From Spirogloea muscicola (Eukaryota; Streptophyta; Zygnematophyceae; Spirogloeales; Spirogloeaceae): DNA of 47,239 bases. A program made the translations under genes and the position numbers. The notes beneath the pieces are model-generated. The model was not told the origin of the DNA and searched no databases. It was given only the letters and a program-made list of their open reading frames with translations. Shown piece after piece: positions 231 through 46,037 of this stretch. Position 1 is the first letter of the stretch. Every line of letters begins with the position of its first letter. The stretch lies in the NCBI GenBank assembly GCA_009602725.1, contig WELB01000008.1, forward strand, positions 21,980-69,218, given 5' to 3'.

Positions 231-310
231 TCTCTCCTTCTCGTACTCTGTTCATTCTTTTTCGGGCTGGTTTTTCCAGCCCCTATTCTCAATGGGCGAG
301 CACTTTCTTC
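231..310 (+). repeat. B1-type 3'-tail hairpin module
   Basis: This is one copy of the dispersed module: a pyrimidine-rich lead (CTTCTCGTACTCTGTTCATTC), a GGGCTGG / CCAGCCC hairpin, and the tail TCTCAATGGGCGAGCAC. It directly abuts the A1 3' UTR on the left and a Q-rich coding remnant on the right. Longer copies (39771-39910, 45912-46037) show that it is the terminal part of the subfamily B1 3' UTR. Confidence 0.75.
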
Positions 311-463
311 GACAAGTCAGCGGAAGAGGAAGGCCGCGCACGGGTGAATCGGCTGGAGACGCTACTGACTCGGACTGTACAACAACAGCAACAGCAAATG
401 CAACAGCAATTACAACAACAGCAAGCGGACTGGTTCAGCAGGCTGATTGAGAAGCTTTAATAA
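311..463 (+). CDS. Orphan C-terminal coding fragment, glutamine-rich
   Basis: An open frame of 50 codons runs from the edge of the hairpin module to two consecutive stop codons (458-463). It encodes a charged, heptad-like stretch (R-L-E-T-L-L), then about 15 residues that are nearly all Gln with a Met and a Leu, then A-D-W-F-S-R-L-I-E-K-L. The pattern suggests a coiled coil. No start is visible because the 5' side is transposon sequence. I do not recognise it; it may be a host gene remnant or the end of a gag-like ORF. The copia gag pieces near 17.5 and 27.1 kb are also Gln-rich. Confidence 0.4.
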
Positions 464-1310
464 GAGCCGGCAGCAATCCGATTGCAAAAAGTTTATGTAC
501 AATAATTTCTCAGACTGTCAATTGGCTCTTCACAGGATTCGAGATTCTGCGTAGCAGGCTGATCAATTAGTAGCTGTAGTAGGCGCCGGCAGGGCTCTGA
601 CCGCCAACGTCAATGTACAGATTGCTGGCAAACAGTCAAAACGATCTGTTTCTTCCCACATGTTTGCCCATCCGACCTGGCGGGGCTTGCGGGGCGGTTC
701 CGCCCGTGCAGGCGGCCTCGGCCTCCATAGCCGTGTCCACCCCTCTGACGGCGTAGACGAAACGACCGCGTCCGTCCGTCCAAGTTTAAGTCGCCCCTGA
801 GCAGCTGTCGCCCAGCAAAAGCAGCTGTACAAGTATCCCCAAGCACTAAGTAGCCTCGCTGACAGATGGGAACTGCTACCCAGTATACATCACAGGCGGA
901 TTTTGAAGTACTGGTCCTAGGGTAATTGGAAGATTGAGAGGAAAGTAAGTTATTATTGATATCAGGGTTATGACTTGATTGCTATGTATTCAGCAATAGA
1001 ACTTCAAGGTTTACGTTTCTGTATAGCTGCCGCCTCGAAGACCACAAAGCGGCCGTCACTCAGGGTGCAAAAGCAGCTCCCAAAGAGTGTAGGCAAGTCG
1101 TGACAGCCGGCACTGACAGCCTCACTTGATTGTGCATCAATCTGTCGCGGCTCTTCTACGAGGGGTCTTAGTAAGACTTAGCTTATTACATGCTCCACCT
1201 GCTCTCGGTAACATAATCTGTGAGCTCCAATTGCTTGACATTGAGTGCAGGCTGGAGTAAACAATGAAGGAATGGTCGGCATATGACTGGGCACGATAGT
1301 CTATCTGGCC
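464..1310. other. Intergenic / 3' flank of the receptor kinase gene
   Basis: No gene is supported here. Short open frames exist on the minus strand around 563-846, but they have low-complexity Arg/Pro composition and match no family I recognise. The 3' UTR of the minus-strand kinase gene presumably lies in the right part. Confidence 0.4.
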
Positions 1311-4300: not shown

Positions 4301-5336
4301 AGACGAGCGTCCAGCCCTTGATGACCGGCACGGGCTGGCCGTACGCCACGAGCCGCTGGTAGTTGGGAATGAGCACCGCCGTGAAGCCCATCACGCTCCG
4401 TGACCCGTCGTCGTAGATCATCTGCAGGCGCCACCGGCCGAGCCACCCGGCTCAGAAGCGGAGGACCCACGAAGACCGGGCCCTCACCGAGCCGCTTATC
4501 CGTGCGCGGCGCTGCATCCATGGCCGCTCTGAGCTTCTCGCAACCAGTCCCAAGTGTGGGCAGCTCAATGGGGCTCAGCTACATGCGGAGCTGAGCCACA
4601 TTGCAGCGTCCGCCTGGCCCTGGCGTCGCCGCACCTCGGTGATGTACGCCAGGCTGCCGTACTCGTCCCGGAACGTGATGCCGGTCTGGTTGCGGAGGCG
4701 CAGCAGCGTCGACGGCGGCGCGAGCGTGGCGAGCTCCTCGGGGGGCTCGTCGCGCGACTCCGCCTGGAGCTTGGAGATGTTGTAGTGCTCCGTGACGATG
4801 TGGTAGTCCAGCAGCTGCGCCAGGAAGACGGCGTTGTCGGAGCCCAGCGCCGCCGCCACGGCGGCGTAGTGGCCATGTGGGTCCGCCCACGCCCCATCCA
4901 CCGGCACGTACAGCGTCCGCCCCGCCTGCGCCGCCGCCGCCGCTGTCGCCGTCAGGCTCGAGACGGCGCGTCGAAGCAAACCCGTCTCGGCAGTATTGAG
5001 GCTAAAGTCGCCGCCATGGCGCCGGCGGCGCTGCCAGTTGCAACGGCAGCGCCTTCACTGCCGCTGCGGCGCTCTGGCTGCGGCAGCGTCCTGGCCGTGG
5101 CTGCTCCGGGAAAGGCGGCGACGGCGGCGGCGGCGGCGGCGGCCGAGCGCCCCGGTGGACCTGGAGGCCGAAGCTGCGGCCGACGCTGGTGGCGTTGTCG
5201 TCCAGGAGCCGCGCGGCGGTGGCGTAGCTTCCGCCGGGCGCCGCCAGCAGCGCCGCCCTCACCGCCGGCCATACGTCCGCCGCCACGGCACCGCCGCCGC
5301 AGCAGGCGGCGGCGGCGGCAGCTAGCAGCAGCCCAN
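1311..5336 (-). CDS. FAS1-domain receptor-like kinase (PERK-type kinase domain)
   Basis: Eleven exons can be joined: about 5336-5161, ~4990-4635, 4421-4127, 3941-3781, 3581-3410, 3139-3062, 2914-2844, 2701-2625, 2454-2307, 2073-1924 and 1541-1311. The first two give a hydrophobic Ala-rich leader and a fasciclin (FAS1)-like ectodomain with T-L-Y-V-P-V-D and L-L-D-Y-H-I-V. Exon 3 supplies a transmembrane segment ([13 protein letters not shown]) followed by basic residues. Exons 4-11 encode a complete RD-type kinase: glycine loop G-E-G-G-F-G-K-V, Lys in [18 protein letters not shown]. The tail after the kinase also resembles plant PERKs. Expected role: plasma-membrane receptor sensing the wall or extracellular matrix. 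The exact start and the exon 1/2 junction are uncertain, and an N lies at 5336. FAS1 fused to a kinase is unusual. Confidence 0.8.
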
Positions 5337-5740
5337 ACTCTACGACCTCTGCTGTGCAACTGACAGCCTGAGCAGCTGATTGGCTGCACGACAGTGCAGC
5401 AACACGGCGGCGGCGGCGGCGGCGGCGGCGGCTGCGGCGCGGCGGTCCTGCAGGCTGCGACGGTACTGGTCGGCGACGTGGCTGACGCACGTGGGGCCCC
5501 GGCCCCCGGCGCCTCTCGCGCCGAGCCGCCGGATCCCTCCGATCGACGGCGGGCGTTCCGTGCTCCGCGGCCATCCGTCCGATCCGTTCCGTCGACGGTG
5601 CATGCGCGCCGTCCAGGGGGGGGGAAGCTTTGCCCGGCAGCGTGACATCACGTCCCGGCGCTAACTTCCGCGCCACGACTCTCGCTGACCGACGCGGAGA
5701 CCGCCGTTGACCGCCGGCGTAAGGACCAGGCACCCCACCA
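5337..5740. other. GC-rich 5' flank of the receptor kinase with GGC run
   Basis: This very GC-rich stretch upstream of the minus-strand kinase gene holds a pure (GGC)n run at about 5404-5432. A minus-strand frame stays open to 5733, but it is Arg/Pro-rich and could be 5' UTR. An upstream ATG near 5573 could extend the gene if an extra exon exists. Confidence 0.4.
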
Positions 5741-5904
5741 CACTCGTAACCACGTAACCCCTGCTCCTACACCCAGACTCCTGCGCTACGTGCAGAAAAC
5801 GAACGACGGATCTTGCCCCAGCTTTTCTGACATGCGGCTGGTCAATGGGGGATGGTCAGCACCCAGTGCCACTTGGTTCGCTGTTTCCTTCACCGCTTTT
5901 CTGG

Positions 5905-6080
5905 CCCCTTCGAACTTTGTTCATTCTTTGGTCCGGGCTGGCCAGTCTCAGCTATCGAAGGAAGCGCGGCCAGATTGACTGGTCGCTGGGAAAGGCCAGC
6001 CCAAAAGAATGGACAAAGTCTGAGGGGAGCCTGAGTGCGAACAACTAGGGCTATCGCTCTCTACTGGAAGAGCCTGTCCC
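5905..6080 (+). repeat. D-type hairpin module interrupted by a B2-type module
   Basis: The D module starts with a GTTCATTC lead and GGGCTGGCC (about 5918-5945), breaks at GCTATCG, and resumes at 6050 with GCTATCG followed by CTCTCTACTGGAAGAG. The intact D consensus elsewhere (for example 32270-32305) reads straight through this point. The interruption is therefore an insertion, and GCTATCG is duplicated at 5951-5957 and 6050-6056. Confidence 0.65.
5958..6049 (-). repeat. B2-type 3'-tail module inserted in a D module
   Basis: This 92 bp insert reads, on the minus strand, as the terminal part of the subfamily B2 3' UTR: CTCAGGCTCCCCTCAGACTT, GTCCATTC, a GGGCTGG/CCCAGCC hairpin, then CCAGTCAATCTGGCCGCGC. 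The same tail follows a B2 ORF at 41329-41450. It is flanked by the 7-bp repeat GCTATCG. Confidence 0.65.
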
Positions 6081-6099
6081 AAACGGGGCGACTGCTGTT

Positions 6100-6135
6100 T
6101 CCAATCCCTATTCTCAATGGGCGAACACTTCCTGT
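6100..6135 (+). repeat. Partial B1-type tail
   Basis: About 30 bp (CCCTATTCTCAATGGGCGAA) match the last part of the B1 module without the lead or the 5' arm of the hairpin. It is either a very short truncated copy or a decayed one. Confidence 0.5.
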
Positions 6136-6195
6136 TGGACGGCCAGCCTAATATGGACTGGACAAAGTCCGGTGGGGCCGGTCCAGCAGATAGAA

Positions 6196-8066
6196 AGTGC
6201 TCGCCCATTGAGGATAGGAGCTGGAAATGCCAGCCCAAAAAAGAATGAACAAGTACAAGAAGGGGGCCAAGGGAAGCGCTAAGAAATACAAGCATACAAC
6301 GAAACAAAGCAGCTACGAATAACTCAGTAACCTCTGCTAAGCAGCCGCAGATCAGAGATGCTGGGCTCCTGGAAGTGGGTCCCCTGGCCAGAGCAAGAGG
6401 CAGCAGCCCATAGACCTCTGCAGCGAGACGGCCAGGCGCATACGATCCACTTGCGCCAGCGACCCGGCTGCAGGAAAGTCGACCGGCTCCCTGTGGAAGC
6501 GACGGGCGATGGTGTGGCGGGCGAGCCGGGTGAGCAGCTCGAGCCACCGAGCGCCCAGCGCCCCATGGGTGTCAATTGCCAGCGGGAAGAACTCGTCTTC
6601 CCGCGGACGGTCGGGGTACGTGAGCTATTTACTGAGCAGCCATCTGCATCTCCCTCTGCACCATCTTGCACTTTGTAGTGTAGTCCTTTTTCAGCACCTC
6701 TTTCTTTGGCTTTGAACATTGTCCATTCTTTTTGGGTTGGCTTTGCCAGCCCCTCTTCTCAATGGGCGAGCACCTTCTTCTTTAGCCCGAGCAGCGCAGA
6801 CGACCGCATACCCAGCCTTGACGGCACACTGGGCTGGGTGTGAGCGGTCGTATGCGTCGGTGGTCACCACGTCCAGGAGAAGACGTGGCCCGCCGGCCTG
6901 TGGGGTGGCCACCAGGTCTACGCGACGGGCGTGGAGACCGTCGGTCCTTTCCTGGAGCGGCATGACGCCGGAGTGCTCCGCTGCCACAGAGAAGCCAGCC
7001 TCCACCAGGATGCCATGCATCGCATTGCGGAGGCGGTCGTGAGCCGCTGTCCGCTCGCCGCCGTGGGCGCAGCGCAGAACATGAGCGGCCAGCTCCCCAG
7101 ACTCGGCCCCTCGCTCGCCGCACACACACTGACGCACGCCCTGGAGACATGGAGGCAGCAGCCCCAGGAGCCGGTGGACGGCAGTGCGAAATACTCATAG
7201 GGGAGAGTGAGGGCGTCATTGATGGGGAGGGCCTGAAGCCACGCCGCTGCCCCGGGGGAGGAGGCCGATTGAAGTCTTGCGCGCCTGCGCAAGTCGGCCT
7301 TGGGGAGCTGCAGCACGGCGGTGGTGTAGGCGGCCTTGTCGACCACAGCCGCGAAGCGCGCTTGGACGCGCAGGTCAGCGGTGTGCGCGAGGTGCGCAAA
7401 GGAGACCGCCTGGCCTGCCAGGTCCGGGTGCGCCGCGAGCAGCTCCTGGTGGGCGGAGCGAAGCGACACCTGGAATGGCAGCACACCCATGTCGACCTCC
7501 ACCACCGCCTGCTCCAGTGCACGCCAGCCGTGGACCATGAAGCGCTGGGCCACGGAGGCGGCAGTCTGCGCCCAGCTGCCGAGGTATGCAGCCCGGGAAG
7601 AACGGGCGAGCGGGCGCAGGCCGAGACCACCGTGGCTGAGGGGTAGCGCCGCCTGGTGGATAGCGGCTGGCGACTGGAGGAAGCCCTGGTGGCGGACCAG
7701 GGCCGCCAAGCTCGCCACCATGCCTGCGTCAAAATCCGCGTCTGCTGCCAACGCCCCTGGGGATGGCGGAGTGGTCCTCGTCAAGTACTGGGGCCGCTGC
7801 CCAATGGCCTTGATCAACATGGCCAACGACAGCTGCATATCGACCAGCTCAGGAAGCCAGGCCGCAGGCTGAAGATGCTCTGGCGGGCTCGCAGCTGCCC
7901 CTCCACGAAGGACGGCGCGCCGATGGGGCCCCTCAGCAGGGTGAAGCCATCTGCTGGAGTCTGGCAGCCGGTGGGCAGCATCAGGGTTGGTGGGAGGCCG
8001 CAGAGAGACCAAGCCGCGCAATTGACGCCCGGGTGGACAGGCCGAGGGTGGCCAGCTGCAGCTCAA
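6196..8066 (-). mobile_element. RLE-type non-LTR retrotransposon, subfamily B1 (degenerate)
   Basis: Read on the minus strand, the element runs from the C-terminal (thumb) side of the reverse transcriptase (H-G-G-L-G-L-R-P-L and A-Y-L-G-S-W-A-Q-T-A blocks, about 7300-8000) into a Cys-x-Cys...His-x3-Cys knuckle near 7070-7130, then an R-V-D-L-V...L-L-L-D-V-V-T-T-D endonuclease-like block. It finishes with S-D-L-R-L-L-S-R-G-Y and a stop at 6324-6326. Frame changes near 7140 and 7900, plus an inserted module at 6627-6783, show it is dead. Bases 6196-6323 are its 3' UTR with the terminal hairpin. The catalytic RT core is missing, so the copy is 5'-truncated. I place it with R2-like elements from domain order, not from a database match. 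Confidence 0.75.
6627..6783 (+). repeat. B3-type 3' end inserted in the B1 ORF
   Basis: About 157 bp, opposite in orientation to the host element, begin with the last codons and stop of a B3 ORF (TACTGAGCAGCC). They continue through the B3 3' UTR to the hairpin GGGTTGGCTTTGCCAGCCC and the end GGGCGAGCACC. The same sequence is the 3' UTR of the B3 element at 37861-38030. It splits the B1 codons for A-R-A-K-E from the rest, at the site where a different module sits in the 45.6 kb B1 copy. Confidence 0.7.
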
Positions 8067-17022: not shown

Positions 17023-17487
17023 TGTTGAATATAGAAATATGGTGAATCAGTGGGTTGGTAGAATCCCCCATTCCGCTCATTCTGCTAGGCCGATGAGAGT
17101 CTCCCTAGATAAGGGAGGCTCCGGCAGATGACAGGATAGGCCCAAAAAATCTTGTGGCTCTAAGTACGGCGAAGCGGCGCTGTATGCGCGGCGGCTCTGT
17201 GTGAGGCGAAGCGGCGCTGTGTGCGCGACGGCTCTGTGCGGCGAGGCGGCGCTGTGTGCGCGGCGGTTCTGTGTGAGGCGAAGCGGCGCTGTGTGCGCGA
17301 CGGCTCTGTGTGCGGCGAGGCGGCGCTGCGTGCGCGGCGGCTCTGTGTGCGACTAGGTGGCGCTGCGTGCGCGACGGCTGTGTGTGCGGCAAGACGTTGC
17401 TGTGTGTGCGGCCAGGTGGAGCTGAGTGCTCGCCAGCTCTGTGTGTAATCAGGCAAGCCTTTGTGTTACTCTGAACTCTTTGTGACC
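17023..17487 (+). mobile_element. Copia-type LTR containing a 37-bp minisatellite
   Basis: The sequence begins TGTTGAATAT, like the 3' LTR start at 26720, and shares with it a block near GAGAGTCTCCC...GATAAGGGAGGC. A short gag-like ORF with the same M-S-A-S-A-S start follows, as at 26961. The middle is occupied by a tandem repeat that the other LTR lacks. I treat it as the left LTR of a copia relative whose internal region is mostly gone. The right boundary is not certain because no canonical primer-binding site follows. Confidence 0.5.
17171..17450 (+). repeat. 37-bp tandem repeat, 7-8 units
   Basis: Units start with GAAGCGGCGCTGTGTGCGCG or GAGGCGGCGCTG and end CTCTGTGTGCGGC. Most are 37 bp; one is 35, one about 22, and the last is diverged. 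GAAG- and GAGG-starting units, and ...GCGGCGG and ...GCGACGG forms, alternate in the middle, suggesting spread as two-unit blocks. Confidence 0.85.
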
Positions 17488-27239: not shown

Positions 27240-27545
27240 TGTGTGGCCAAGTACAAAAAGAAAGGGCTCGCCCATTGAGGATAGGGGCTGGACAAGTACA
27301 AATGCACGCACAACTGCGCAACTGGAGCGGTTTGCCAGTGAGAAAGCGCGGCCAGATTGACTGGTGGCTGGGAAAGGCCAGCCCAAAAGAATGGACAAGG
27401 CCAGTTGGCCACCGCCAGACAAGGCCAGCCCACAGCTGTTCATTCTTTCCTGGGCTGGCTTTGCTGGCCCCTCTTTTCCTATGCGCGAGCCATTTCCTCC
27501 ATCTTTTTTTTTTAATTTCATGCGCTCCGCGCGCCTTCTCTCTTA
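27240..27545. repeat. Cluster of four tail modules
   Basis: In order: a B1-type tail, minus (27262-27298, GCTCGCCCATTGAGG); a B2-type tail, minus (about 27335-27400, CGCGGCCAGATTGACTGG); a B1-like tail, plus (27430-27495, GGGCTGGCTTTGCTGGCCC); an A2-type tail end, plus (about 27518-27542, CATGCGCTCCGCGCGCC). They separate the copia remnant from the A1 element. Confidence 0.65.
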
Positions 27546-29013
27546 TGTTCTTATCACCCCCCGCCCTGTCCTCACCCGCTGCATCGGCCAACGGGCTCGC
27601 TACTGCAACGGACAGTTGCCCCATTGGGCATGGTGGCGGAGCTCTACAAGGAATATGATGACTCCCTTCAGCAGTCCCTGGCAGCCCTACTACATTCTTC
27701 ATCTTTCCCCTCAGCTTCAGCTTCCCTCCAGGCCTCCCTCCCTACTCGCATGGGCGGCCTTGGCTGCCGGTCGTTGGAGCAGACGGCGCAAGCAGCCTTC
27801 CTGGGCTGCTGGCACCAGATCGCCTCCCTGCTCCCCATGCGCTTCCCTTGCCTCCACGACCCTGTACGCAATGTGGAGGAAGGCTCCTTCCCCTTCCAAG
27901 CGGATCTGAGGAGCATCCGCGACTCAGCCATCAGCTCTTTCCCCTCTCTCCAACCCCTACTCACGCCATTCTCCACCCTCGCCCAAGCTTCTGATAGAGG
28001 GGCACAATCCAGACTGGTTACGGCAGTGGAAGACGAACGCCGCAGAAGGTTGAGGAGGCTGCCAGAGATTCAGAACAATCCGAGGAGCTTGGCAAGACTC
28101 ACTTCTCTGGCCACACCTGGTGCCACTGACTGGATCACCTCTCCCCCCGTCGCCAACGCCTTCAGCATCAGCTCCGAGGCCTTTCGGACATCGCTTCAAC
28201 TCTTCCTCGGCCTCCCACCTAATTGCCTGATTGGGGTGCGCCAGTGCGAGTGCGGCTTCCGTGCAGAGGGTGCTGTGCTCGCCACTCACATGCTGAGATG
28301 CCCCACTGGACCAGAAGTGGTGGGCATTCACAACCTCCTTCGCGATGCCCTGGCGGGCTTGATGCGCGACGCCGGCTACCGTGCGGTCGTGGAAGTCAAC
28401 AATATCATGCCTATCACCACGGACGCCCAGGGACGTCATCATCGCCGCACACTTGACATTGTGGGCGTGCAACCTGGTGGAGGACCACGGGCCCTGGTCG
28501 ACGTTGTTGTTACGGAGGCATATAAAGGCCCAGCATCAACACACATTGCTGGGCACGCAGTGGGCGGAGCAGAGCAAAGAAAACTGCGGCATTACTCCGA
28601 TTACCCCCAATGCGATCAACTCCTGCCAGCTGCAATCGACATCTTTGGCTGTCTGGGTCCTCGCTTCCACACTCTGCTTCAAAACATTGCCAATCTAGGC
28701 TACACTCGACGCGCAGATGTGTTTCCGGCTGAGATGGGCTTGCCAGCTGCATATCTGTCGCTCTTGCGACGTCGAGTTTCGGCCTGTTTGCAGCGTGCTC
28801 AGGCTAGTGCCTTGCACCAGAAAGCTGGGCGAGCTCTAGTAGGTGGCAGAAGGGCTCCGTTCCTGGCATCTAGTATTCATGCATCGAGTAGTGACCTTTA
28901 TGTTTGACCCGTGGTTATTGAGCGGGTCAATCTGCTGTAGGTTATGTAGATTTTTAGATGTGCTTGCCTTTGTACCTGGCCATTTGGCCTACATTTCTTT
29001 CTAATACACGATC
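27546..29013 (+). mobile_element. RLE-type non-LTR retrotransposon, subfamily A1 (best-preserved copy)
   Basis: One frame of 427 codons (27624-28907) holds the RT C-terminal region (G-G-L-G-C-R-S-L and A-F-L-G-C-W-H-Q-I), the knuckle C-E-C-G-F-R...T-H-M-L-R-C (about 28248-28300), H-N-L-L-R-D-A-L, the endonuclease-like pair R-R-T-L-D-I-V and V-D-V-V-V-T-E-A-Y (28440-28525), and a long C-terminal tail. A one-base loss at 28903 (TATGTTTG instead of TATGCTTTG as at 118-125) replaces the final A-L-T-R-G-Y with an early stop. The RT catalytic core is missing and a frame change lies near 27615. The 3' UTR ends AATACACG near 29009. Knuckle plus restriction-like endonuclease after the RT is the R2-type layout; I infer the class from that. 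Confidence 0.82.
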
Positions 29014-35654: not shown

Positions 35655-35870
35655 AAAGAAGGGCGCCCATCGAGGATAGGGGCTGGAAAAGCGAGCCCAA
35701 AAAAGAAGAGAAAGGACGCCAAGGGGGCCAGGGGAAGCGCTAAGAAAAGAAGAAAGTGCTCGCCCATTGAGAATAGAGAAGGGCGGCCAGATTGACTGGT
35801 GACTAGGAAAGGCCAGCCCAAAGGTGTGGACAAGAGCTGAGGGAGAGCCTGAGTGCGAACGACTAGGACT
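35655..35870 (-). repeat. Two B1-type tails and a B2-type tail in series
   Basis: On the minus strand: a B1-type module with pyrimidine lead (35658-35745), a short B1 end (35755-35775, GCTCGCCCATTGAGAATAG), and the B2-type 3' UTR (about 35780-35870) that leads into the B2 ORF at 35877. Confidence 0.65.
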
Positions 35871-35876
35871 AAGACA

Positions 35877-36476
35877 TCAGCCAGGGAACGCTAAGTGACC
35901 TCTAGTCAGGAGATGCAAGTCTGAGTAGCTAGCTGGCGGAAAGACGTCGCCCTGACGGAAGCCGGAGGCCGCCGCCAAAGCTCGGCCTGCGCGCAAGTGA
36001 ACCGCGAAGGCAAGGGACCGCTGCAACGAGATGGCCAGACGCATTCGAAGACTTGAGCAAGGGACCCGGCGACGTTGAAGCCGGGCTGCTCGCCCTGCTG
36101 CCCGAGGCGGGCGGGCCGCTGCACGCCGCGCAAGGCGGTGAAGCAAGTCGAGCCGTTTCGAGCCAAAGGCTCCGTGCACGTCGACTGCCAGTGGATCAAA
36201 CTCGTCTCCCACCGGGTGGTCCGAGTGTTTGCGTTCCTTTTCGCCCGCCGCTTGGCCGACTGCGTAGCCCGCCTCCTCCGACGAGCGTTTGGCGCTGCTG
36301 GAAACAAAGCAGTCAGTCGTGACAACGTCGGCGATGAGCCGAGGCCCCCCGCCGAGCGCGCTGGCGACGAGGTCGGCGCGCCGGGTGTGGATGCGGCCAT
36401 CCGCCCCAGCGGTCGGAGGCATGACGCTGGTGGTCTCGAGCGCCACCGCATAACCGACCTCAATAAAAGGTATCAC
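35877..36476 (-). mobile_element. RLE-type retrotransposon, subfamily B2 (endonuclease half)
   Basis: A single 199-codon frame holds the endonuclease-like blocks R-A-D-L-V-A and I-A-D-V-V-T-T-D, then A-V-D-V-H-G-A-F-G, L-H-R-L-A-R, R-M-R-L-A-I-S-L-Q-R-S and the C-terminal S-D-L-H-L-L-T-R-G. One base change turns the usual final Tyr-stop into His and adds five residues. The copy starts abruptly at about 36472, inside the C-subfamily element upstream. Confidence 0.75.
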
Positions 36477-37334: not shown

Positions 37335-37710
37335 AGAAGAAGAGCTCGCCCATAGAGAAGAGGGGCTGGCAAAGGCAGCCCAAAAAGAGAGAAGGCGCGC
37401 GGGGCGCATGAAATGCAATGGAAGCCAGTTCAAGCCGATACATTGTTCAGGCAGAGTCCAGGGCAAGAGAGAAGGCGCGCGGGCGCATGAAATGAAATGG
37501 AGGCCAATTCAAGCCGACACATTGTTCAGGCAGAGTCTAGGGCAAACTAAACAGGGCTACATAAAGCGGCCCCTTTCTCGTACTCTGCTCACTCTCTTTT
37601 GGGCTGGCTTTTCCAGCCCCTATCCTCAATGGGCGAGCACTTTCTTTCTACATAAAGCGGAGACCTAAACTAAGGTGCCTAAGGTGACATCAGTACCCAC
37701 GGGTAGAAGA
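37335..37710. repeat. A2-type 3' ends with nested B1-type modules
   Basis: On the minus strand an A2 3' UTR starts after a C-G-T-G-G-G-T-A-C-T-G-A stop context near 37697 and runs to CGCGCGCCTTCTC near 37463; it is split by a plus-strand B1 tail (37570-37647). A second A2 tail, 37388-37455, follows directly. A B1-type tail, minus (37338-37392), then joins the C element. Confidence 0.7.
37570..37647 (+). repeat. B1-type 3'-tail insertion with 13-bp target duplication
   Basis: The 78 bp insert (CCCCTTTCTCGTACTC lead, hairpin GGGCTGGCTTTTCCAGCCC, tail TCTCAATGGGCGAGCAC with one difference) is flanked by exact copies of CTACATAAAGCGG at 37557-37569 and 37648-37660. The other A2 3' UTR at 44365-44395 lacks any insertion at this point. 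Confidence 0.88.
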
Positions 37711-37860
37711 GAGGGAGAAGGTGCTCGCCCATTGAGGATAGGGGCTGGAAAAGGCAGCCCAAAAAAGAATGAACAGAGTACAAGAAGGGGGCCAGGGGAA
37801 GCGCTAAAGAAAAACAAGCACACAAGCAAAGGAGAGCTGGCCCACCCGGCCAGCCCACAG
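37711..37860 (-). repeat. B1-type 3' UTR/tail copy
   Basis: Reads on the minus strand as the B1 3' UTR from TGTGTGCTTG and the AGCGCTTCCCCTGGCC block through the hairpin to GGGCGAGCACC near 37720. Confidence 0.65.
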
Positions 37861-38500
37861 GAGAAGGTGCTCGCCCATTGAGAAGAGGGGCTGGCAAAGC
37901 CAACCCAAAAGGAATGGACAACGTTCAAAGCCAAAGAAAGAGGTGCTGAAAAAGGACGACACTACAAAGTGCAAGATGGTGCAGAGGGAGATGCAGATGG
38001 CTGCTCAGTATCCACGTGTGAGCAACAGCAGATCAGAGTAACTCGGAGCAGGAGAAGCGGCACTTTGCCGAGACCCGGAAGCAGCTGCCATAGCACGGCC
38101 AGCCCGCGCGTGGACCGCATGAGCCAAAGAGCGCTGCAGCGAGACCGCCAGCCTCATCCGAAAGACCTGCGAGAGGGAGCCGGCAGCATTGAAGCCTGGC
38201 GAACCCTGCCGCCGCTCGATGGCCTCCCGGGCAAGCCGCTGGAGGAGATCCAACCAGCCACTGCCAAAGGCCCCGTGTACGTCAATGGCCAGTGCCGCGA
38301 AGGCATCGCCTGGAGGGTGGTCAGAGTACTTGCGCTCCTTACTCCGAGCCGCCAGAGCGACCGCGTGCCCGACGAGCGTCGCGGACTTCGCGGGGTTGGC
38401 CGAATCAACGCAATCGGCAGTTACCACATCAGCGATGATGCGCGGACCTCCTCCGGGCGGGATGGCAACGAGGTCCGCGCGGCGGGTGTGAAGCTGTCCA
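37861..38500 (-). mobile_element. RLE-type retrotransposon, subfamily B3 (3' part)
   Basis: The ORF (minus, about 38500-38032) carries the endonuclease-region end (A-D-V-V-T-A-D-C near 38420), H-G-A-F-G, R-M-R-L-A-V-S-L-Q-R-S, and finishes S-D-L-L-L-L-T-R-G-Y at about 38030. The 3' UTR (to 37861) ends with GGGTTGGCTTTGCCAGCCC and GGGCGAGCACC. The first arm has T for C, which still pairs as U-G, so the stem is conserved. The 5' part is missing. Confidence 0.75.
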
Positions 38501-39567: not shown

Positions 39568-39910
39568 GGGGGGAGCCGGTGGACTTTCCTGCAGCCGGGT
39601 CGCTAGCGTGGGTATACAGGATGCGCTTGGCCGTCTCGCTGCAGCGGTCAATGTCCCGCGCGCTGCACCTGCGGGCTGGCAGAGCCTTTGCTGCTGCCTC
39701 TGGCTCTGGCCAGGGGACCCACTTCTAGGAGCCTAGCGTCTCTGACCTGAGGCTGCTTTGCAGGGGTGACTGAGTGATCCGTAGCTGCTTTGTTTCTTTG
39801 TGTGCTTGTTTTTCTTAGCGCTTCCCCTGGCCCCCTTCTCGTCCTTCGTTGGTCGTTTTTGGGCTGGCTTTTCCAGCCCCTATTCTCAATGGGCGAGCAA
39901 TTTCTTCCAC
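39568..39910 (+). mobile_element. B1 3' end with complete 3' UTR and terminal hairpin
   Basis: Coding remnant of the B1 C-terminus (TTTCCTGCAGCCGGGTCGCT..., ending at the L-R-L-L equivalent with a damaged RGY and a stop near 39770). It is followed by the 3' UTR (GTAGCTGCTTTGTTTC, TTAGCGCTTCCCCTGGCCC), hairpin GGGCTGGCTTTTCCAGCCC and tail GGGCGAGCAATTTC. This copy defines the full B1 3' UTR. Confidence 0.75.
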
Positions 39911-41081
39911 TGAGAGGTGAGAGGAGATGGAGCGTTGAGCGGGCAGAGAGGCAGGGCTGGCCCGTCCGTTGTTCATTCTTTTTTCGGGCTGGTTTTCAAG
40001 CCCCTATCCTCAATGGCGAGCACATTCTTCTCATTCAGAAATGAGAGGCCGCGCAGGGGACTCGGCTGGTGCCCTTGGTTGTATGCGGCAGCCCGGGAGG
40101 GCGCCGCCCCAAGTGTCTGACAGAGCAGCTTGTGAAGTCTCTCTTGTGGCGGTGAGTGGTTCCGCGAAGGCGGTAACCACCTGCATCACCTGCGTGGGGG
40201 GGCGGCGTCTAACAGCGTTTTGGGCTGGCTTTTGCGTCTCTGACCTGGGCTGCTTAGCAGGGGTTACTGAGTGATCCGTAGCTGCTTTGTTTCTTTGTGT
40301 GCTTGTTTGTCTTAGCGTTTCCCCCGGCCCCCTTCTCGTCATTTGTTGGTTCTTTTTTGGGCTGGCTTTTCCAGCCCCTACTCTCAATGGGCGAGCACTA
40401 TCTTCTTTCCCAGCCACCAGTCAATCTGGCCGCGCTTTCTCACTGCCCCCTATCTAATCTGGAAGGCAGGTGGATGGGAAACTACTTCCTGCAACCGGGT
40501 CGCTGGCGCAAGTGTATTGTATGCGCCTGGCCGTCTCGCTGCAGAAGAAAGTGCTCGCCCATTGAGGATAGGGGCTGGAAATGCCAGCCCAAAAAAAATT
40601 CAATGATGGACGAGAAAGGGGGCCAGGGGAAGCGCTAAGAAAAACAAGCACAAAAAGAGACAAAGCAGCTACGAATCACTCAGTAACCCCTGCTAAGCAG
40701 CCGCAGATCAGAGATGCTAGGCTCCTGGAAGTGAGAAGAAGTGGGTCACCTGGCCTGCAGAGGTCTACGGCCCGCGCTGTGCACCTGCGTGCCGGCAGAG
40801 CCCTCGCTGCTGCCTCTGGCTCTGGGGACCCACTTCCGGGAGCCTAGCATCTCTGACCTGCTGCTGCTTAAGGGGGTTACGGAGTGATTTGTAGCTGCTT
40901 TGTTTCTTTGTGTGCTTGTCTTTCTTAGCGCTTCCCCTGGCCCCCTTCTCGTTCTTTGTTGATCTTTTTTGGGCTGGCTTTTCTAGCCCCTATTCTCAAT
41001 GGGCGAGCACTTTCTTCTTTTCTTAGCGCTTCTTTCCCCTGGCTTCTCGTACTTTGTTCATTCTTTTTTGGGCTGGCTTTC
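39911..41081. mobile_element. Mosaic of nested B1/B2 3' ends
   Basis: Recognisable parts: B1 tail, plus (39975-40030); B1 3' end, plus, from the stop near 40261 through its tail (to 40410); B2 tail end, plus (40408-40440, CCAGTCAATCTGGCCGCGC); B1 coding scrap, plus (about 40475-40543); B1 3' end, minus (40545-40735); B1 3' end, plus (40735-41020, stop near 40880); B1 lead and half hairpin (41030-41080) breaking off at the first arm, where B2 coding sequence begins. No host gene is seen. Confidence 0.65.
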
Positions 41082-41450
41082 CACCGCCTGGCGCGGCGTG
41101 CAGCGGCCCGCCGCCACGGGCAGCAGGGCGAGCCCGGCTTCAACGTCGTCGGGTCCCTCGCACAAGTCTTCCGCATGCGTTTGGCCGTCTCGATGCAGCG
41201 GTCCCTTGCCTTTCGCGGTTCAATTGCGCGCAGGCCGAGCTTTGGCGGCGGCCTCCGGCTTCCGTCAGGGCGACGTCTATCCGCCAGCTAGCTACTCAGA
41301 CTTGCATCTCCTGACTAGAGGTTACTGAGCGTTCCCTGGCTGATGTCTTAGTCCTAGTCGTTCGCACTCAGGCTCCCTCAGATCTTGTCCATTCCTTTGG
41401 GCTGGCCTTTCCCAGCCACCAGTCAATCTGGCCGCGCTTCTTTCCAAGCC
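41082..41450 (+). mobile_element. Subfamily B2 3' end with 3' UTR
   Basis: Coding from L-A-R-R-A-A to S-D-L-H-L-L-T-R-G-Y (stop 41326-41328) in changing frames, then the B2 3' UTR (GCGTTCCCTGGCTGATG, CTCAGGCTCCCTCAG, TTGTCCATTCC), hairpin GGGCTGGCCTTTCCCAGCC and end CCAGTCAATCTGGCCGCGC near 41435. This copy defines the B2 tail. Confidence 0.75.
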
Positions 41451-41594
41451 CCTATCCTCAATGGGCGAGCACTTTCCTTTTCTTCTCGTCCTTTGTTCAT
41501 TCTTTTTTTGGGCTGGCTTATCCTGCCCCTATCCTCAATGGGCGAGCACTTTCTATTCCAGCCCGTCCTCAAGGGGCGAGCACTTTCTTCTTAA
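41445..41594 (+). repeat. Three B1-type tails in a row
   Basis: Tail ends at 41445-41475, 41486-41555 (with full lead and a hairpin altered to GGGCTGG...CTGCCCC) and 41556-41590 (only the last ~25 bp). The third looks like an extremely short copy placed directly after the second. Confidence 0.65.
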
Positions 41595-41794: not shown

Positions 41795-41965
41795 GAAGAA
41801 AGTGCTCGCCCATTGAGAATAAGGGCTGGAACAACCAGCCCGAAAAAGAATGAACAGAGTACGAGAAGGGGGCCAGGGGAAGCGCTAAGTAACAGAAACA
41901 AAGCTGCTACGAGACACTCAGTAACCCCTGCTAAGCAGCCGCAGATCAGAGATGCTGGGCTCCTG
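41795..41965 (-). mobile_element. B1 3' end (last codons and full 3' UTR)
   Basis: On the minus strand it runs from the codons for S-I-S-D-L-R-L-L-S-R-G-Y (about 41960-41920) through the B1 3' UTR to hairpin and tail at about 41800. Both edges abut non-transposon sequence. Confidence 0.7.
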
Positions 41966-42830
41966 CAGAGGGTGCCCCTGCGCTCACCCCGGGCCGGACC
42001 ACCCCGGCAGCACCACCTCCGCCGCCGCGCCGCGCCTCGTCTCCTCGTCCCTGACACCCTTTTCCGCCCCGCTCCTCCTCTTCCCTCCGCGCGCGCTCGC
42101 CAGCTCCACCATCACTGCCTCGTCCCGCCGCCATCCCCGCGGACGGCGCCGCCGCCGACGGCCCGAACCACCGCCCCCGTGCCGCGGCAGCAGCTGCGGC
42201 CCCGGCTTTCTGCCTCCCGCCATCCTCCGCCGCCGCCTTCCGCGCCATGCTCGACGGCAGCGGCGCCGCGGCCGCCGGCGCTCCGGCCTGCCTGCCTCCC
42301 CACGACTTTCACCAGGTAGCGGCTGCTCGATCGCCCTCGCATCGAAGCCACTGAGTTGTGGTGATCGAGTCGTTGCCCGCCGTATCCCTGCACGGCCGAG
42401 CTCATCAACACGGCGGCTGATTCCCGCCATGTCGTGTGCCGCTCCTGGTGCAGGCATCAGTGCCCGCACCCTCTTCGCCAGCGCCGTCTCCAGCGCTGGC
42501 CGTGCCTGCTCCCCAGACCCTGCCACTCCCGCCGTCACCGTTCACGCCCGTGAGCGACGAGCAACCCCTCGACGTGACATTGTGGTCGACGTTGAACCCT
42601 CTACTCGCCAACCCGCACCTATCGGAAAGCATGCGCGAAGCTGATCCGTGGCAAGACTTCCTGGACACGGACCTTCTTGCCAACGGCCACTGCAGTAGGG
42701 GCTGTCCCACCGCTGGCAGTGAGGCCACCTTAAGCAACTCTGAATGGAGAGCTCTGCTCTATGCTGACGATGCCGGCACCCTGAAGAGGCTCCTCGCAAA
42801 ATTCCCTTCTCTTGCGAGACCTTTTTGAAA
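41966..42830 (+). CDS. Unrecognised plus-strand gene fragment (two or three exons)
   Basis: A frame over about 42120-42318 ends A-F-R-A-M-L-D-G-S-G...L-P-P-H-D-F-H-Q before a possible donor (CACCAG|GTAGCG). After a possible acceptor (GGTGCAG, 42454) a frame of about 125 codons continues to a stop at 42826-42828. It is Pro/Ser/Ala-rich at first, then has D-V-T-L-W-S-T-L-N-P-L-L and W-R-A-L-L-Y-A-D-D-A-G-T-L-K-R-L-L-A-K-F-P. The last part resembles one helix pair of an ankyrin-type repeat, too little to claim. GC-rich composition and intron placement fit the host genes. It is cut by a B1 3' end on the left; what follows on the right is stem-loops and an A1 element. It may be a truncated gene. 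Confidence 0.35.
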
Positions 42831-42989: not shown

Positions 42990-44840
42990 GTACTTGAAAG
43001 AAACGAAGGCCAAATGGCCTAGTACACAGGCAAGCACATCTCAAGACATACATCACCTACAGCATATCGAGCCGCTCAGTAACCACAGGTCAATACATAA
43101 AGGTCGCTAATCGATGCCTGAATACTAGATGGCAGATACGAAGCCCTTCTGCCACCAAGTAGAGCTGGCCCAGCTTTCTGGTGCAAAGCATTAGCCTGAG
43201 CACGCTGCAAACAGGCCGAAACTTGTCATCGCAAGAATGACAGATATGCAGTTGGCAAGTTATTTTCAGCCGGAACCACATCTGCACGTCGTGCGTTGCC
43301 TAGATTGGCAATATTCTGAGGGAGAGTGTGGAAATGAGGACCTGAACAGCCAAAAATGTCGACTGCAGCTAGCAGGAGCTGATCGCATTGGGGGTAAGCG
43401 AAGTAGTGCTGCAGCTTGCTTTGTTCTGCACTGCCCACTGCGTTGTCAGCGATGTGCGTCGATGCTGGACCTTATTTAAGCCTCCGTGACAACAACATCA
43501 ACCAAGGCCCGTGGTCCTCAACCAGGTTGCATGCCCACAATGTCAAGTGTGCGGCGATGCTGACGTCCCTGGGAATCCGTGGTGATACGCTTAATATTGT
43601 TCACTTCCACAACGGCACGGTAAGCGGCGTCGCGCATCAGAGTAGCCAGGGCATCACGGTTGTGGATGGAGGAGGAGATTGGTTTGTGGATGCTCACCAC
43701 TTGAAGTCCAGTGGGGCATCGCAGCATGTGAGTGGAGCTCAACACCCTCTGCACGGAAGCCACACTCACACTGGCGCACTCCATTCAGACAGTCAAGTGG
43801 GAGGCCGAGGAAAAGTCGAAGCAGCGTCCGAAAGGCCTCGGAGCTGATGCTGAAGGCATTGGCAACGGTGTGTGAGGTGATCCAGGCGGTGGCACCAGGT
43901 GTGGCTCGAGAAGTAAGTCTTGCCAGGCTCCTTGAATTGTTCCGAATCTCTGGCAGCCTCCTCGACCTTCTGCGGCGCTCGTCATCCACTGTCGTAACCA
44001 GTCTGGATTGTGCCCCTCTATCAGAAGCTTGGGCGAGGGAATAGAATGGGGTCATCAGGGGTTGTCGAGAGGAATAATAGCTGACTGCTGAGTGGCGGAT
44101 GCTCCTCAGATCCGCTTGAAAGGGGAAGGAGCCTTCCTCCACATTGCGTACGGGTTTGTGGAGGCAAGGGAAGCGCATGGGTAGCAGAGAGGCGATCTGG
44201 TCCCAGCAGCCCAGGAAGGCTACCTGCGCTGTCTGCTCCAACGACCGGCAGCCAAGGCCGCCAATGCGAGTGAGGAGGGAAGCCTGGAGAGAAGGCGCGC
44301 GGGGCGCATGAATTGAAAGGGAGGCCAATTCAAGCCAATACATTGTTCAGGCAGAGTCGAGTGCAGACTAAACAATGCTACATAATACGGAGACCTAATC
44401 TAAGGTACCTAAGATGACATTAGTACCCACGGGTGAGCACAAACAAATCTGACAAGCTAACTTGGGGAGCTGGAGCGCCGCCACGAAAGCCGGAGGCCTG
44501 ACTTAGAGCACGCCCTGCACGTTGATGAAGAGCCAATGCTTGCGAGCGCTGCAAACTAAGCGAGAGCCGCATTCTATAATATGCAGGGAAGGGAAGATGA
44601 AGCTGGAGGGAAGATGAAGCTGAGGGGAAAGATGAAGAATGTAGTAGAGATGCCAGGGACTGCAGAAGGGAGTTGGCGTATGCCTTGTAGAGCTCGCCCA
44701 TCATGCCCATTGGGGCGACTGTCCGTTGCAGGTAGCATGCGCGTTGGCCGATGCAGCGGTTGAGTATGCCAACGCCAGCTGTGTGTCGCCAAGGAGGGGA
44801 AGGGAAGGGAGGGGGGCAAGGTGTATTTGTGGGCGTTCCC
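42990..44840 (-). mobile_element. RLE-type retrotransposon, subfamily A1, with nested A2 copy
   Basis: On the minus strand: RT-end sequence with a frame break (L-G-D-T-Q-L-A-L-A, then R-C-I-G-Q-R-A-C-Y-L) near 44840-44720, M-G-M-M-G-E-L-Y-K-A-Y, then the nested A2 insert (44289-44598). The A1 frame resumes L-Q-A-S-L-L-T-R-I-G-G-L-G-C-R and runs to the knuckle region. A deletion and frameshifts damage the endonuclease part (43518-43784 keeps R-R-T-L-D-I-V). It ends S-D-L-Y-V-L-T-C-G-Y near 43080, followed by the 3' UTR with the GGCC...GGCC hairpin. Confidence 0.75.
44289..44598 (-). mobile_element. Subfamily A2 3' end inserted in the A1 ORF
   Basis: The insert begins with R-M-R-L-S-L-S-L-Q-R-S and ends S-D-L-F-V-L-T-R-G-Y (stop near 44430), followed by the A2 3' UTR and end CGCGCGCCTTCTCTC. 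The A1 reading frame is found on both sides, with about 9 bp repeated at the edges (AAGCCTGGAG at 44280-44289 versus AAGCTGGAG at 44600-44608). This copy shows that the free-standing A2 modules elsewhere are 3' ends of this subfamily. Confidence 0.7.
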
Positions 44841-44864
44841 GCAAATCCTCCGCCACGTCAGTGC

Positions 44865-45090
44865 GAAGGTCTAGGACTAAGACATCAGCCAGCGAACGGT
44901 CAGTAACCTCAGCCACCGCCCTCTCCGGAGTGCAAAGGACAAGGACTAGAACTGAGACATCAGCCAGGGAACGCTCAGTAACCTCTAGTCAGGAGATGCA
45001 AGTCTGAGTAGCTAGCCGGCGGAAAGACGTCGCCCTCACGGAAGCCGGAGGCCGCCGCCAAAGCTCGGCCTGCGCGCAAGTGAACCGCAT
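44865..45090 (-). mobile_element. Two B2 3' ends
   Basis: On the minus strand, codons for A-S-Y-S-D-L-H-L-L-T-R-G-Y with their stop near 44975 and a B2 3' UTR start lie next to a second, shorter B2 3' UTR scrap near 44865-44915 (GGACTAAGACATCAGCCAG occurs in both). Coding homology starts at about 45087. Confidence 0.65.
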
Positions 45091-45429
45091 GGAGGAGCTG
45101 CGCGACCACTTCCCTTCTCCTCATGGCCTATGGCCGTCCAGGGCGGCCGCTGTGGCAAGCGGGAGTCGTGGAAGACGCTGTGGTCATCTTCCGGCACACG
45201 CCTGGGAAACCCCGTAGCCCAATCCTGATGATAAGCCAGCCCGAAAAGATTAGACAAGGTTCGAAGGGGCCAAATTACGAAGGGCCAGCAAGCGCTATCT
45301 CAAGAGTGGGGTAGGATGAACCACTTAATGACTACGAGTGAGGAGCCGCTGTGAAAAGCCAGCCGGAAGAGACTTGACAGAGTTCGGAGGGGCCGAAAAG
45401 GACTGAAAGACAGAAATGAGCAAGGAGCA
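45091..45429. other. Spacer with two decayed hairpin tails
   Basis: On the minus strand two tails with CGGGCTGGCTTATC and CGGCTGGCTTTTCACAGC (near 45225-45285 and 45335-45405) both carry a GGCCCCTTCGAACC- or GGCCCCTCCGAACT-like lead. They look like relatives of the D module with a different lead. No gene is supported. Confidence 0.4.
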
Positions 45430-46037
45430 GGTAGGAGAGTCACTTAGCGTCATGCCGCTCCAGGAAAGGGCCGACGGTCTCCACGCCCGTCCCGTAGACC
45501 TGGTGGAGAAAGGCCACCCCACAGGCCGGCGGGCCACGTCTTCTCCTGGACGTGGTGACCACCGACGCATACGACCGCTCAGACCCAGCCCAGTGTGCCA
45601 CCAAGGTCGCCTGCGCCGCTCGGGCTAAAGAAAGAAAGTGCTCGCCCATTGAGAATAGGGGCTGGAAAAGCCAGCCCAAAAAAGAGCTCAAGTACGCCAA
45701 CCATCCGCGGGAAGAAGAGTTCTTCCCGTCGGCAATTGACACCCATGGGGCGCTGGGCGCTTGGTGGCTCGAGCTGCTCATCCGGCTCGCCCGCCACACC
45801 ATCGCCCGTCGCTTCCATGGGGAGCCGGTAGACTTTCCTGGCTTTGGCCAGGGGACCCGCTTCCAGGAGCTTAGCGTCTCTGACCTGAGGCTGCTTAGCA
45901 GGGGTTACTGAGTGATCCATAGCTGCTTGGTTTCTTTGTGTGCTTGTTCTCTTAGCGCTTCTCCTGGCCCCCTTCTCGTCCTTTCTTGATTTGTTTTGGG
46001 CTGGTTTTTCCAGCCCCTATTCTCAATGGGCGAGCAC
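45430..46037 (+). mobile_element. Subfamily B1 element, endonuclease half to terminal hairpin
   Basis: The plus strand encodes V-M-P-L-Q-E-R-A-D-G-L-H-A-R, then in another frame L-L-L-D-V-V-T-T-D-A-Y-D-R, A-A-R-A-K-E, the inserted module, L-K-Y-A-N-H-P-R-E-E-E-F-F, H-G-A-L-G, and S-D-L-R-L-L-S-R-G-Y (stop 45909-45911). The complete B1 3' UTR and hairpin follow to 46037. It aligns with the minus-strand B1 copy at 6324-7137. Confidence 0.78.
45636..45689 (-). repeat. B1-type tail inserted in frame in a B1 ORF
   Basis: A net 54-base insertion reads, on the minus strand, TTTTTTGGGCTGG, the CCAGCCC arm, TCTCAATGGGCGAGCAC and TTTCTT. Because 54 is divisible by three and the sequence has no stop in this frame, the B1 frame stays open through it, adding 18 residues between A-K-E and L-K-Y. 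AAAGA occurs on both edges. Confidence 0.75.

Follow-up and report, generated by a model that had tools for sequence, protein, structure and literature searches.

Short dispersed repeats in an apparent green alga as probable 5'-truncated copies of R2-like LINEs

The 5' truncation of LINEs is a textbook phenomenon, and the surprise of meeting it in a further genome is therefore limited. For ordinary 5'-truncated LINEs, a usual length of 100–1,000 bp has been given (PMC3747384). R2 elements are described as animal elements (PMC12203849). The clades of LINEs with a restriction-like endonuclease (RLE) include HERO, CRE, R4 and NeSL/Utopia, with HERO described as holding many non-specific elements (PMC4640811). 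In Yarrowia lipolytica, the L1-type LINE Ylli has been reported as 17 full-length copies, 7 copies >1 kb and 104 fragments between 30 bp and 1 kb in length (PMC5014426). A preliminary description of the DNA considered here could name no described family with such behaviour, while allowing that one might exist. To hold that none is described would be too strong, as Ylli, in its published account, is a smaller precedent (PMC5014426).

Here, short modules were followed from one window (the whole stretch of 47,239 nucleotides that was analysed) into the host genome. They are very probably retrocopies that lack the 5' part of their parents and derive from at least three related R2-like (RLE) LINE families, B1, B2 and B3. 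The process is a known one that looks unusually extreme and common here.

Modules in the window and in the genome

Scanning both strands with the terminal cores of B1/B3 and B2 (up to 4 substitutions) located 25 module 3' ends in the window. The B1 core, the only one for which the window was shuffled, had 0 matches in 20 single-base shuffles. The preliminary description had counted more than 25 modules of 30–160 bp in both orientations; the 25 ends do lie on both strands, but the size range did not hold, several copies being >200 bp. Several modules are nested inside each other, and some seeming tiny pieces are a single copy split by a later insertion. Limits and orientation of A2, another LINE kind, were read by eye. 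The features are listed below, with limits from the core scan unless another basis is given.

231..310, plus strand: B1 3'-end copy, ~80 bp; the scan's automatic limit overran into a flanking repeat, and the start comes from a separate comparison
5957..6053, minus strand: B2 3'-end copy, ~97 bp
6094..6133, plus strand: B1 3'-end copy, ~40 bp
6192..6406, minus strand: B1 3'-end copy, ~215 bp
6630..6780, plus strand: B3 3'-end copy, ~151 bp, within a LINE coding region; uninterrupted relatives exist (core scan and empty-site comparison)
27257..27296, minus strand: B1 3'-end copy, ~40 bp
27340..27400, minus strand: B2 3'-end copy, ~61 bp
27624..28907, plus strand: C-terminal part of a LINE ORF (A-type family), with CCHC-like knuckle and restriction-like endonuclease region (ORF, alignment, structure model; no Pfam match)
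35749..35776, minus strand: B1 terminal piece, ~28 bp, adjoining a B2 3' end (limit by eye)
35775..36207, minus strand: B2 long copy, ORF end and 3' UTR
37335..37388, minus strand: B3-like 3'-end copy, ~54 bp, 3 core substitutions
37570..37647, plus strand: B1 3'-end copy, 78 bp, inside an A2 element (read directly, with empty-site comparison)
37714..37825, minus strand: B1 3'-end copy, ~112 bp
37860..38272, minus strand: B3 longer copy, ORF end (by eye) and 3' UTR
39570..39907, plus strand: B1 copy, ~338 bp, ORF end and entire 3' UTR
40234..40399, plus strand: B1 3'-end copy, ~166 bp
40406..40441, plus strand: B2 terminal piece, ~36 bp, immediately after a B1 3' end (by eye)
40544..40733, minus strand: B1 3'-end copy, ~190 bp; 7-bp duplication TCTGCAG (own strand); empty-site relatives (core scan and empty-site comparison)
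40755..41017, plus strand: B1 copy, ~263 bp
41018..41479, plus strand: B1 3'-end copy split into 41018-41080 and 41445-41479 (core scan and by eye)
41082..41444, plus strand: B2 copy, ~363 bp, ORF end and 3' UTR
41480..41554, plus strand: B1 3'-end copy, ~75 bp (start by eye)
41555..41590, plus strand: B1 3'-end copy, ~36 bp, degraded, 4 core substitutions (start by eye)
41795..41980, minus strand: B1 3'-end copy, ~186 bp
44289..44430, minus strand: A2 3'-end copy within a LINE coding region (by eye)
45631..45691, minus strand: B1 3'-end copy, ~61 bp
45852..46039, plus strand: B1 3'-end copy, ~190–200 bp; 6-bp duplication TTCCTG; empty-site relatives (core scan and empty-site comparison)
46216..47013, plus strand: LINE ORF, reverse-transcriptase part (Pfam RVT_1, 2.1e-6, 28 bits, just below the curated cut-off of 29.6)

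The stretches first picked out as tails of longer elements proved to be so. B1 39771-39910 is the 3' end of the ~338-bp copy, B1 45912-46037 that of the ~190–200-bp copy ending at 46039, and B2 41329-41450 that of the plus-strand copy 41082-41444. On the minus strand, B3 37861-38030 lies within the copy 37860-38272, and A2 44289-44430 reads, by eye, as a 3' end with its terminus near 44289. Two insertions can be read directly. The 78-bp B1 copy lies between direct repeats of 13 bp, CTACATAAAGCGG, at 37557-37569 and 37648-37660, and an uninterrupted A2 relative of its target lies at 44378-44390 (11/13 identical). The B2 copy 41082-41444 interrupts the split B1 copy, with TTTCC on both sides of it.

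In the 153-Mb host genome, exact 3'-end matches number 2,299 for B1, 1,579 for B2, 346 for B3 and 1,736 for a fourth kind, the four kinds that were counted. They are strand-balanced, and reversed-sequence controls gave 0 matches for each of the four. The closer study of copies concerned B1, B2 and B3; the fourth kind and A2 look alike.

The parent element and its 3' end

The B1 parent is a LINE of ~4.1 kb whose single open frame spans 1,350 codons, or 1,299 aa when counted from the first Met, and has an RVT_1 match at 7.9e-16. Three R2 proteins are the solved structures that match it best (E 6.8e-7 to 1e-6, with the best stretches at 502-777 or 558-777). The reverse transcriptase is thus of the non-LTR kind and, among solved structures only, nearest R2. 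The reverse-transcriptase piece of the window alone had no match in the PDB at E up to 1. C-terminal motifs visible in alignments are what we take to be a CCHC knuckle and a PD-(D/E)XK-type endonuclease. The window's C-terminal LINE pieces had no Pfam match, and the sequence profile of the endonuclease region found no solved structure. When the modelled A-type fragment 27624..28907 was searched with Foldseek, the top 7 matches were all R2, and only R2 structures came below E 0.01 (next match 0.11). This likeness is tentative, the model being of low confidence (mean pLDDT 43), the TM-scores only 0.23–0.29 on the query (rmsd 9–18) and the protein A-type, not B1. At the N-terminus, two C2H2-like motifs are seen by eye; Pfam matches to one of them fall below the cut-off, and the alignment with the R2 finger is weak. 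The R2-like parentage proposed in the preliminary description is borne out by the parent's reverse transcriptase and, tentatively, by a C-terminal region resembling R2. An R2-like kind is supported; the R2 clade proper is not, because the copies are scattered instead of occupying the 28S rDNA site. A search with PF14529, which may miss exon-split or weak matches, found no LINE of the APE kind as a control.

Two long copies, L083 and L084, were considered as full-length elements of 5.45 kb and rejected as composites; the 5' end that other copies share puts the full length at ~4.1 kb. Three further copies (L130, L133 and L135) are 5'-extended.

At the 3' end of B1 (n=98), one TTC unit was found in 61 copies, two in 5, three in 3 and none in 16, with 13 not fitting. 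The terminal hairpin has 32 distinct sequences among 63, and each of its 7 stem pairs is kept in 30–32 of them. As no two-sided changes occur among the 32, an RNA structure is neither proved nor disproved. Single-sequence folding gave z-scores of -4.85 (B1), -0.95 (B2), -2.12 (B3) and -2.07 (A2). A fixed 3' end had been suggested as a check on truncation. It is seen for copies gathered by that end; copies lacking it could not appear, so that the sampling itself largely imposes it. When anchoring was relaxed, in the best 91 of 21,834 first-look candidates, a set biased to long copies, 82/91 scored matches come within 8 residues of the C-terminus and 9/91 stop before it; 26 matches lack the query start but reach the query end.

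Origin of the short copies

B1 lengths were taken from 98 copies with flanks, drawn from the first 100 places listed of the 2,299; 93 were uncensored. The 93 have a median length of 99 bp, with 48 at ≤100 bp and 75 at ≤200 bp. The median is 109 bp for B2 (45/46 uncensored; 21 copies ≤100 bp) and 150 bp for B3 (11/16 uncensored). An earlier, looser pass over all 98 B1 copies (median 101.5 bp, the element's own tail having raised the duplication counts) has been superseded. The plot of copy length that had been proposed as a test, made on this sample, shows spread 5' ends and a predominance of short lengths.

Duplications of ≥7 bp flank 29/93 B1 copies, against an expected mean of 3.8 and a highest value of 9.3 in 100 flank re-pairings. 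No such duplication was found in 64/93, and the 60–100 bp class has just 3/25. The flanks of the 98 B1 copies are diverse, and many copies sit inside other repeats. Empty sites were searched for 179 modules: 68 had some candidate, 32 passed a filter and 22 were accepted by eye, the other 10 being dropped because the "empty site" turned out to be another, related module or because the flanks matched poorly. Accepted sites go down to inserts of ~30 bp, e.g., ~31 bp with TCCGGC duplicated and 70 bp with CATGCTCA duplicated. Some accepted sites have short flank matches (31–47 bp) or extra bases beside the module (~74 in L044p1). Overlap or filler at the 5' junction is mixed and without clear pattern in 16 cases, some later dropped. 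Variable 5' ends, duplications and empty sites, the marks of insertion by target-primed reverse transcription, are thus present, the duplications clearly so in a minority of copies. Together with the parent LINE, they argue for retrocopies with extreme 5' truncation, as the preliminary description had read them, rather than SINEs or DNA transposons.

In such an insertion, the LINE protein would presumably nick a dispersed, pyrimidine-leaning target. The LINE RNA would then be copied from its 3' end, which bears the hairpin and a (U)UC-rich tail. Synthesis would in most events stop after 30–300 nt, probably by early stopping rather than at the ends of RNA fragments. Joining of the second strand at the stop point, accompanied by a short duplication or a few filler bases, would leave a SINE-sized copy. 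A minority of events would reach, or nearly reach, the full 4.1 kb.

Alternatively, truncation may precede insertion, with 3' fragments of LINE RNA, arising by degradation or cleavage, serving as templates that are copied to their ends. The lengths, which misfit a single stopping rate, would suit this: 43 of 864 young 3' ends (~5%) have sequence present at -1 kb and 32 at -3 kb (by coordinates, only 17 of the 32 are also among the 43), so that copies ≥3 kb occur far more often than a constant stopping rate permits. B1 5' ends also cluster weakly near 72–77 and 183–185 bp (smoothed-bootstrap fractions 0.14, 0.054, 0.044 and 0.29 for windows of 1, 3, 6 and 10 bases), which would allow for favoured stopping points or for sites of RNA cleavage. 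However, the spread of 5' ends fits early stopping equally. RNA fragments are a somewhat unlikely source, of appreciable probability.

SINEs, in the sense of independent short elements that are non-autonomous, carry a promoter and have borrowed a LINE 3' end, are very unlikely. The modules are SINE-sized, share a 3' end in thousands of copies and have green-algal precedents in the SINEX repeats of Chlamydomonas, whose 3' end is borrowed from RandI/Dualen (PMC3747384). Against this, the 93 B1 copies have no common 5' end, with 75 distinct start points, and the sequence upstream is further LINE, reaching the ORF in longer copies. The window holds no tRNA, and L083, L084 and the window gave no Rfam match at the gathering score, HDV-like ribozymes included. 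For B1, the SINE explanation is largely refuted.

DNA transposons, MITE-like elements or pieces of them are most improbable. Hairpins are present, L083 and L084 each have 947 bp of their own 3' end repeated in inverted orientation, and L129 has a 113-bp inverted 3' end beside its 5' end. The 947-bp repeat is nevertheless absent from all 13 of the further long copies that were inspected on their 5' side. Short copies have one common and one variable end and, by reading, none of the terminal inverted repeats that had been named as a sign of a DNA transposon, and their duplications vary in length. Erosion of longer copies by 5'-side deletions is scarcely credible even with diverged and nested copies present, since young B1 copies (exact 41-mer) are equally short (median 118 bp in 31 uncensored copies), the truncated ends coincide with, or are close to, duplications and empty sites, and deletions would have to end at a duplication every time.

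Significance and comparison with known systems

A broader reading of the truncated retrocopies joins several RLE LINE families in one scheme and, taken whole, is possible and rather doubtful. Insertion would have two modes: about 95% of events would end within the first kb, most within 300 bases, and those passing would often run for kilobases. B1, B2 and B3 behave similarly, so the outcome may be set by a host factor common to all three or by an early-synthesis checkpoint. Among the short repeats of the genome, micro-copies, not SINEs, may predominate, and some of those upstream of full-length elements may start their transcripts (compare L130, L133 and L135).

Each module may mark where a single R2-like insertion event naturally ended, which would give thousands of such end points, some accompanied by duplications and empty sites. 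With these, early stop versus completion of LINE copying, a long-standing question, becomes testable by counting. They also warn that a small repeat can be a LINE tail even where it is readily mistaken for a SINE or MITE. The findings suggest that R2-like enzymes can insert on a large scale at dispersed targets in an apparent green alga.

The elements resemble R2, as described, in their single ORF, in a reverse transcriptase nearest R2 proteins in the PDB and in 5'-truncated copies (PMC7650587), and possibly in a C-terminal region whose weak model matches R2 structures. They differ in their dispersed targets (28S rDNA for R2), their extremely short copies and their apparent green-algal host. 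Going by published descriptions, they would share an RLE with HERO and the other RLE clades (PMC4640811). Ordinary 5'-truncated LINEs share the proposed mechanism, but here 48/93 B1 copies are no longer than 100 bp. The SINEX repeats of Chlamydomonas are likewise short, LINE-tailed repeats of a green alga; they are listed as SINEs (PMC3747384), whereas the modules here have no fixed 5' part. Ylli, as published, likewise combines full-length copies with many very short ones (PMC5014426). It is described with an apurinic-like endonuclease, poly(A) tracts and no identified duplications, and has about a hundred fragments, compared with thousands here (PMC5014426).

Abundance and length of the modules

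The terminal cores of the B1, B3 and B2 modules occur 25 times in the window, on both strands. Twenty shuffles of the window gave no match to the B1 core. In the host genome assembly (153 Mb, 471 contigs; the window is G000:C8:21980-69218), exact matches number 2,299 for B1 (1,156 forward and 1,143 reverse), 1,579 for B2 and 346 for B3, and the dispersed hairpin modules of the preliminary description do exist. A fourth kind, represented by the look-alike core CACAGCCCTYGCCCCCATTGGGAG and counted without flanks, has 1,736 exact matches. All of these are lower bounds since only exact matches were counted, and the reversed core patterns of the four kinds gave no genome match. Locus L103 (G000:C1:1708165-1709073) carries three B2 3' ends head to tail at a spacing of 164 bp. 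The window also contains two genes, one in the phosphoribulokinase/uridine kinase family and one of the Abhydrolase_3 type. By eye they resemble a chloroplast-type PRK and a plant-type carboxylesterase, which suggests that the host may be a green alga, perhaps a streptophyte. Two further repeats lie in the window.

Other repeats in the window
17119-17421, tandem repeats of about 37 bp per unit
22915-25836 (+), remains of a Copia-type LTR retrotransposon, with gag_pre-integrs and RVT_2 in two ORFs tested (23904-24359 and 25348-25833)

Copy length was measured for 98 of the 2,299 B1 copies, taken from the first 100 places listed (contigs C1-C4) together with flanks of about 850 bases on the upstream side and 200 on the downstream side. 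The core GAGCAC is most frequently followed by the tail TTTCTTC and is preceded by common LINE sequence whose extent differs from copy to copy. Five copies were censored (four at assembly gaps, one at the end of its fetched stretch) and 93 were kept, including L065, which reaches the end of its stretch and whose 877 bp is a minimum. The length plot called for in the preliminary description was drawn for this sample and is dominated by short copies, with a median of 99 bp; the constancy of the 3' end in it is for the most part a product of the collection, which was anchored on the core. Lengths were at most 60 bp in 23 of the 93, 100 bp in 48, 200 bp in 75 and 300 bp in 85, and exceeded 500 bp in 4; three lengths at the 28-bp floor may be too low where another module flanks. 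There are 75 distinct start coordinates among the 93 copies. Starts crowd most near 74 and 183 bp (7 and 6 in 3-base windows) and near 72 bp (10 in a 6-base window), only marginally more than in a smoothed bootstrap (3-base windows 0.054, 6-base windows 0.044).

Among 46 exact-core B2 copies from the fetched loci and the window, 45 were uncensored, with a median of 109 bp (7 at most 60 bp, 21 at most 100, 37 at most 200, and 6 above 300). B3 gave 16 copies, 11 of them uncensored, with a median of 150 bp. Long copies of both kinds are capped by measurement flanks of about 400 bases.

The parent LINE and its composite copies

A search with a C-terminal protein piece yielded 91 scored matches, the best of 21,834 first-look candidates. 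Of these 91, 21 show 100% identity across 465 residues or more; among the matches at 99-100% identity, 15 lie in open frames of 1,243-1,403 codons. A single 1,350-codon open frame is present in L083 and L084; counted from its first Met it specifies 1,299 aa, one fewer than the 1,300 aa submitted to the protein searches. Its product has a reverse transcriptase, two C2H2-like motifs and, in the C-terminal region, what we take to be a CCHC-like knuckle together with conserved D...D residues, and terminates in SDLRLLSRGY directly upstream of the 3' UTR; the B2, B3 and A-type ORF ends are similar by eye.

The parent ORF matches RVT_1 in Pfam (7.9e-16). Among solved structures, three R2 proteins, at 6.8e-7 to 1e-6, are its only sequence matches with E below 1e-5. 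Searched by sequence, an endonuclease-region profile had no match among solved structures. A window ORF fragment with the same kind of C-terminal region was modelled at a mean pLDDT of 43; one block has 36, and the greater share of the endonuclease part about 50-71. With this low-confidence model, the seven top Foldseek matches in the PDB were all R2 structures (2.3e-5 to 1.4e-3; next 0.11), at low TM-scores of 0.23-0.29. As the nearest matches among solved structures are R2, an R2-like parent LINE is supported. PF14529, a model of the APE-type LINE endonuclease, had no match in the whole assembly, a single model search that does not establish the absence of APE-type LINEs.

The 5' sides of 13 further long copies were compared with L083. 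Six start at its position 2107-2116, three of them in one common upstream context; another starts at 2122, and the others start further in. L085 starts at 2114. These common starts place the full-length element near 4.1 kb.

L083 and L084 are different loci with 5,451 bp in common at 99.98%. Both open with a 947-bp inverted copy of the element's own last 947 bp, which about 390 bp separate from the full-length element. In L083 the inverted repeat (770-1716 against 5277-6223) is 99.9% identical and gap-free, and in L084 the inverted similarity extends into the flanks. This composite, with its long inverted ends, seems to have multiplied as a unit. Three other long copies, L130, L133 and L135, share a spacer of about 172 bp upstream of the element's 5' end, and before this spacer each has a B1 3' end on the same strand (132, 430 and 167 bp long). 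It looks as if the upstream sequence was carried by a transcript begun in or before an upstream B1 copy and was truncated separately each time. In HeT-A, promoters lie within the 3' end of the upstream neighbour, an arrangement that this recalls.

Duplications, empty sites and possible modes of insertion

Direct repeats at B1 ends were counted only if they extended past the element's own tail. Repeats of at least 7 bp flank 29 of 93 copies, against 3.8 expected from 100 flank re-pairings (highest 9.3), and repeats of at least 8 bp flank 21, against 2.0 expected by re-pairing. The 7-bp class comprises 7 of 22 copies below 60 bp, 3 of 25 at 60-100 bp, 13 of 28 at 100-200 bp and 6 of 18 longer ones; many B1 copies are thus without a clear duplication. 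Empty sites in repeat targets are stronger evidence of insertion than duplications. Comparison with the fetched loci and window DNA gave candidate uninterrupted relatives for 68 of 179 modules; 32 passed a filter on match length and position, and 22 were accepted on reading by eye.

Modules in interrupted targets
L005m3, B1, about 31 bp, empty site, TCCGGC on both sides
L087, B2, about 27-30 bp, empty site
L038, 47 bp, empty site, TCTACTGGA duplicated
L100, B2, about 70 bp, empty site in a LINE coding region, CATGCTCA duplicated
Window 37570-37647, B1, 78 bp, interrupts an A2 element; flanks CTACATAAAGCGG at 37557-37569 and 37648-37660; uninterrupted A2 relative CTACATAATACGG at 44378-44390

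In the examples read closely, duplications are about 4 to 13 bp long, frequently with pyrimidines first. The number of TTC units in the B1 tail varies, as would be expected if the RNA tail paired with, or slipped on, the primer.

Decayed long copies were rejected as an explanation, given that young copies are equally short and that duplications lie at or near truncated ends. DNA transposons were rejected on the one common and one variable end of the short copies examined, and SINEs for want of a common 5' end, of any tRNA in the window and of any Rfam family in L083, L084 and the window.

In a young subfamily, the terminal 41 bases have 864 exact matches; a 30-mer lying 1 kb upstream has 43 and another, 3 kb upstream, has 32, figures blurred by exact matching. 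By coordinates, in 17 of the 43 copies the second 30-mer lies at exactly 2 kb from the first on the upstream side; the remaining 15 of the 32 lack the exact first 30-mer and presumably belong to other subfamilies. In the B1 sample, the 41-mer is present without mismatch in 31 uncensored copies, whose median length is 118 bp; 28 of them do not exceed 300 bp and none is over 500 bp. Under a single constant stopping rate, with 5% of copies reaching 1 kb, about 0.1 copy would be expected to extend to 3 kb; at least 17 do. Either synthesis meets an early hurdle or there are two kinds of template.

Comparison with described elements

The preliminary description took the modules to be extreme 3' ends of R2-like retrotransposons. 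Lengths, duplications, empty sites and the parent LINE support this for R2-like elements, with the caveats given above; membership of R2 proper is not supported, the insertions being dispersed and not at its 28S target. R2 is present in animals (PMC13188248), and a tabulation of LINE clades from plants and green algae lists no R2 (PMC3747384). Among the RLE clades described, HERO includes many non-specific elements (PMC4640811), and both non-site-specific R2-like elements and R2 truncation have been reported (PMC7650587). Short copies are also on record: Ylli has 17 full-length copies, 7 above 1 kb and 104 of 30 bp to 1 kb (PMC5014426), and LINE members of 100-1,000 bp and SINEX families have been described (PMC3747384). 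The open-access literature searched gave no report of such a pattern in an RLE LINE or a streptophyte alga. The truncation mechanism is established knowledge; what stands out here is the scale, the shortness and the several families together.
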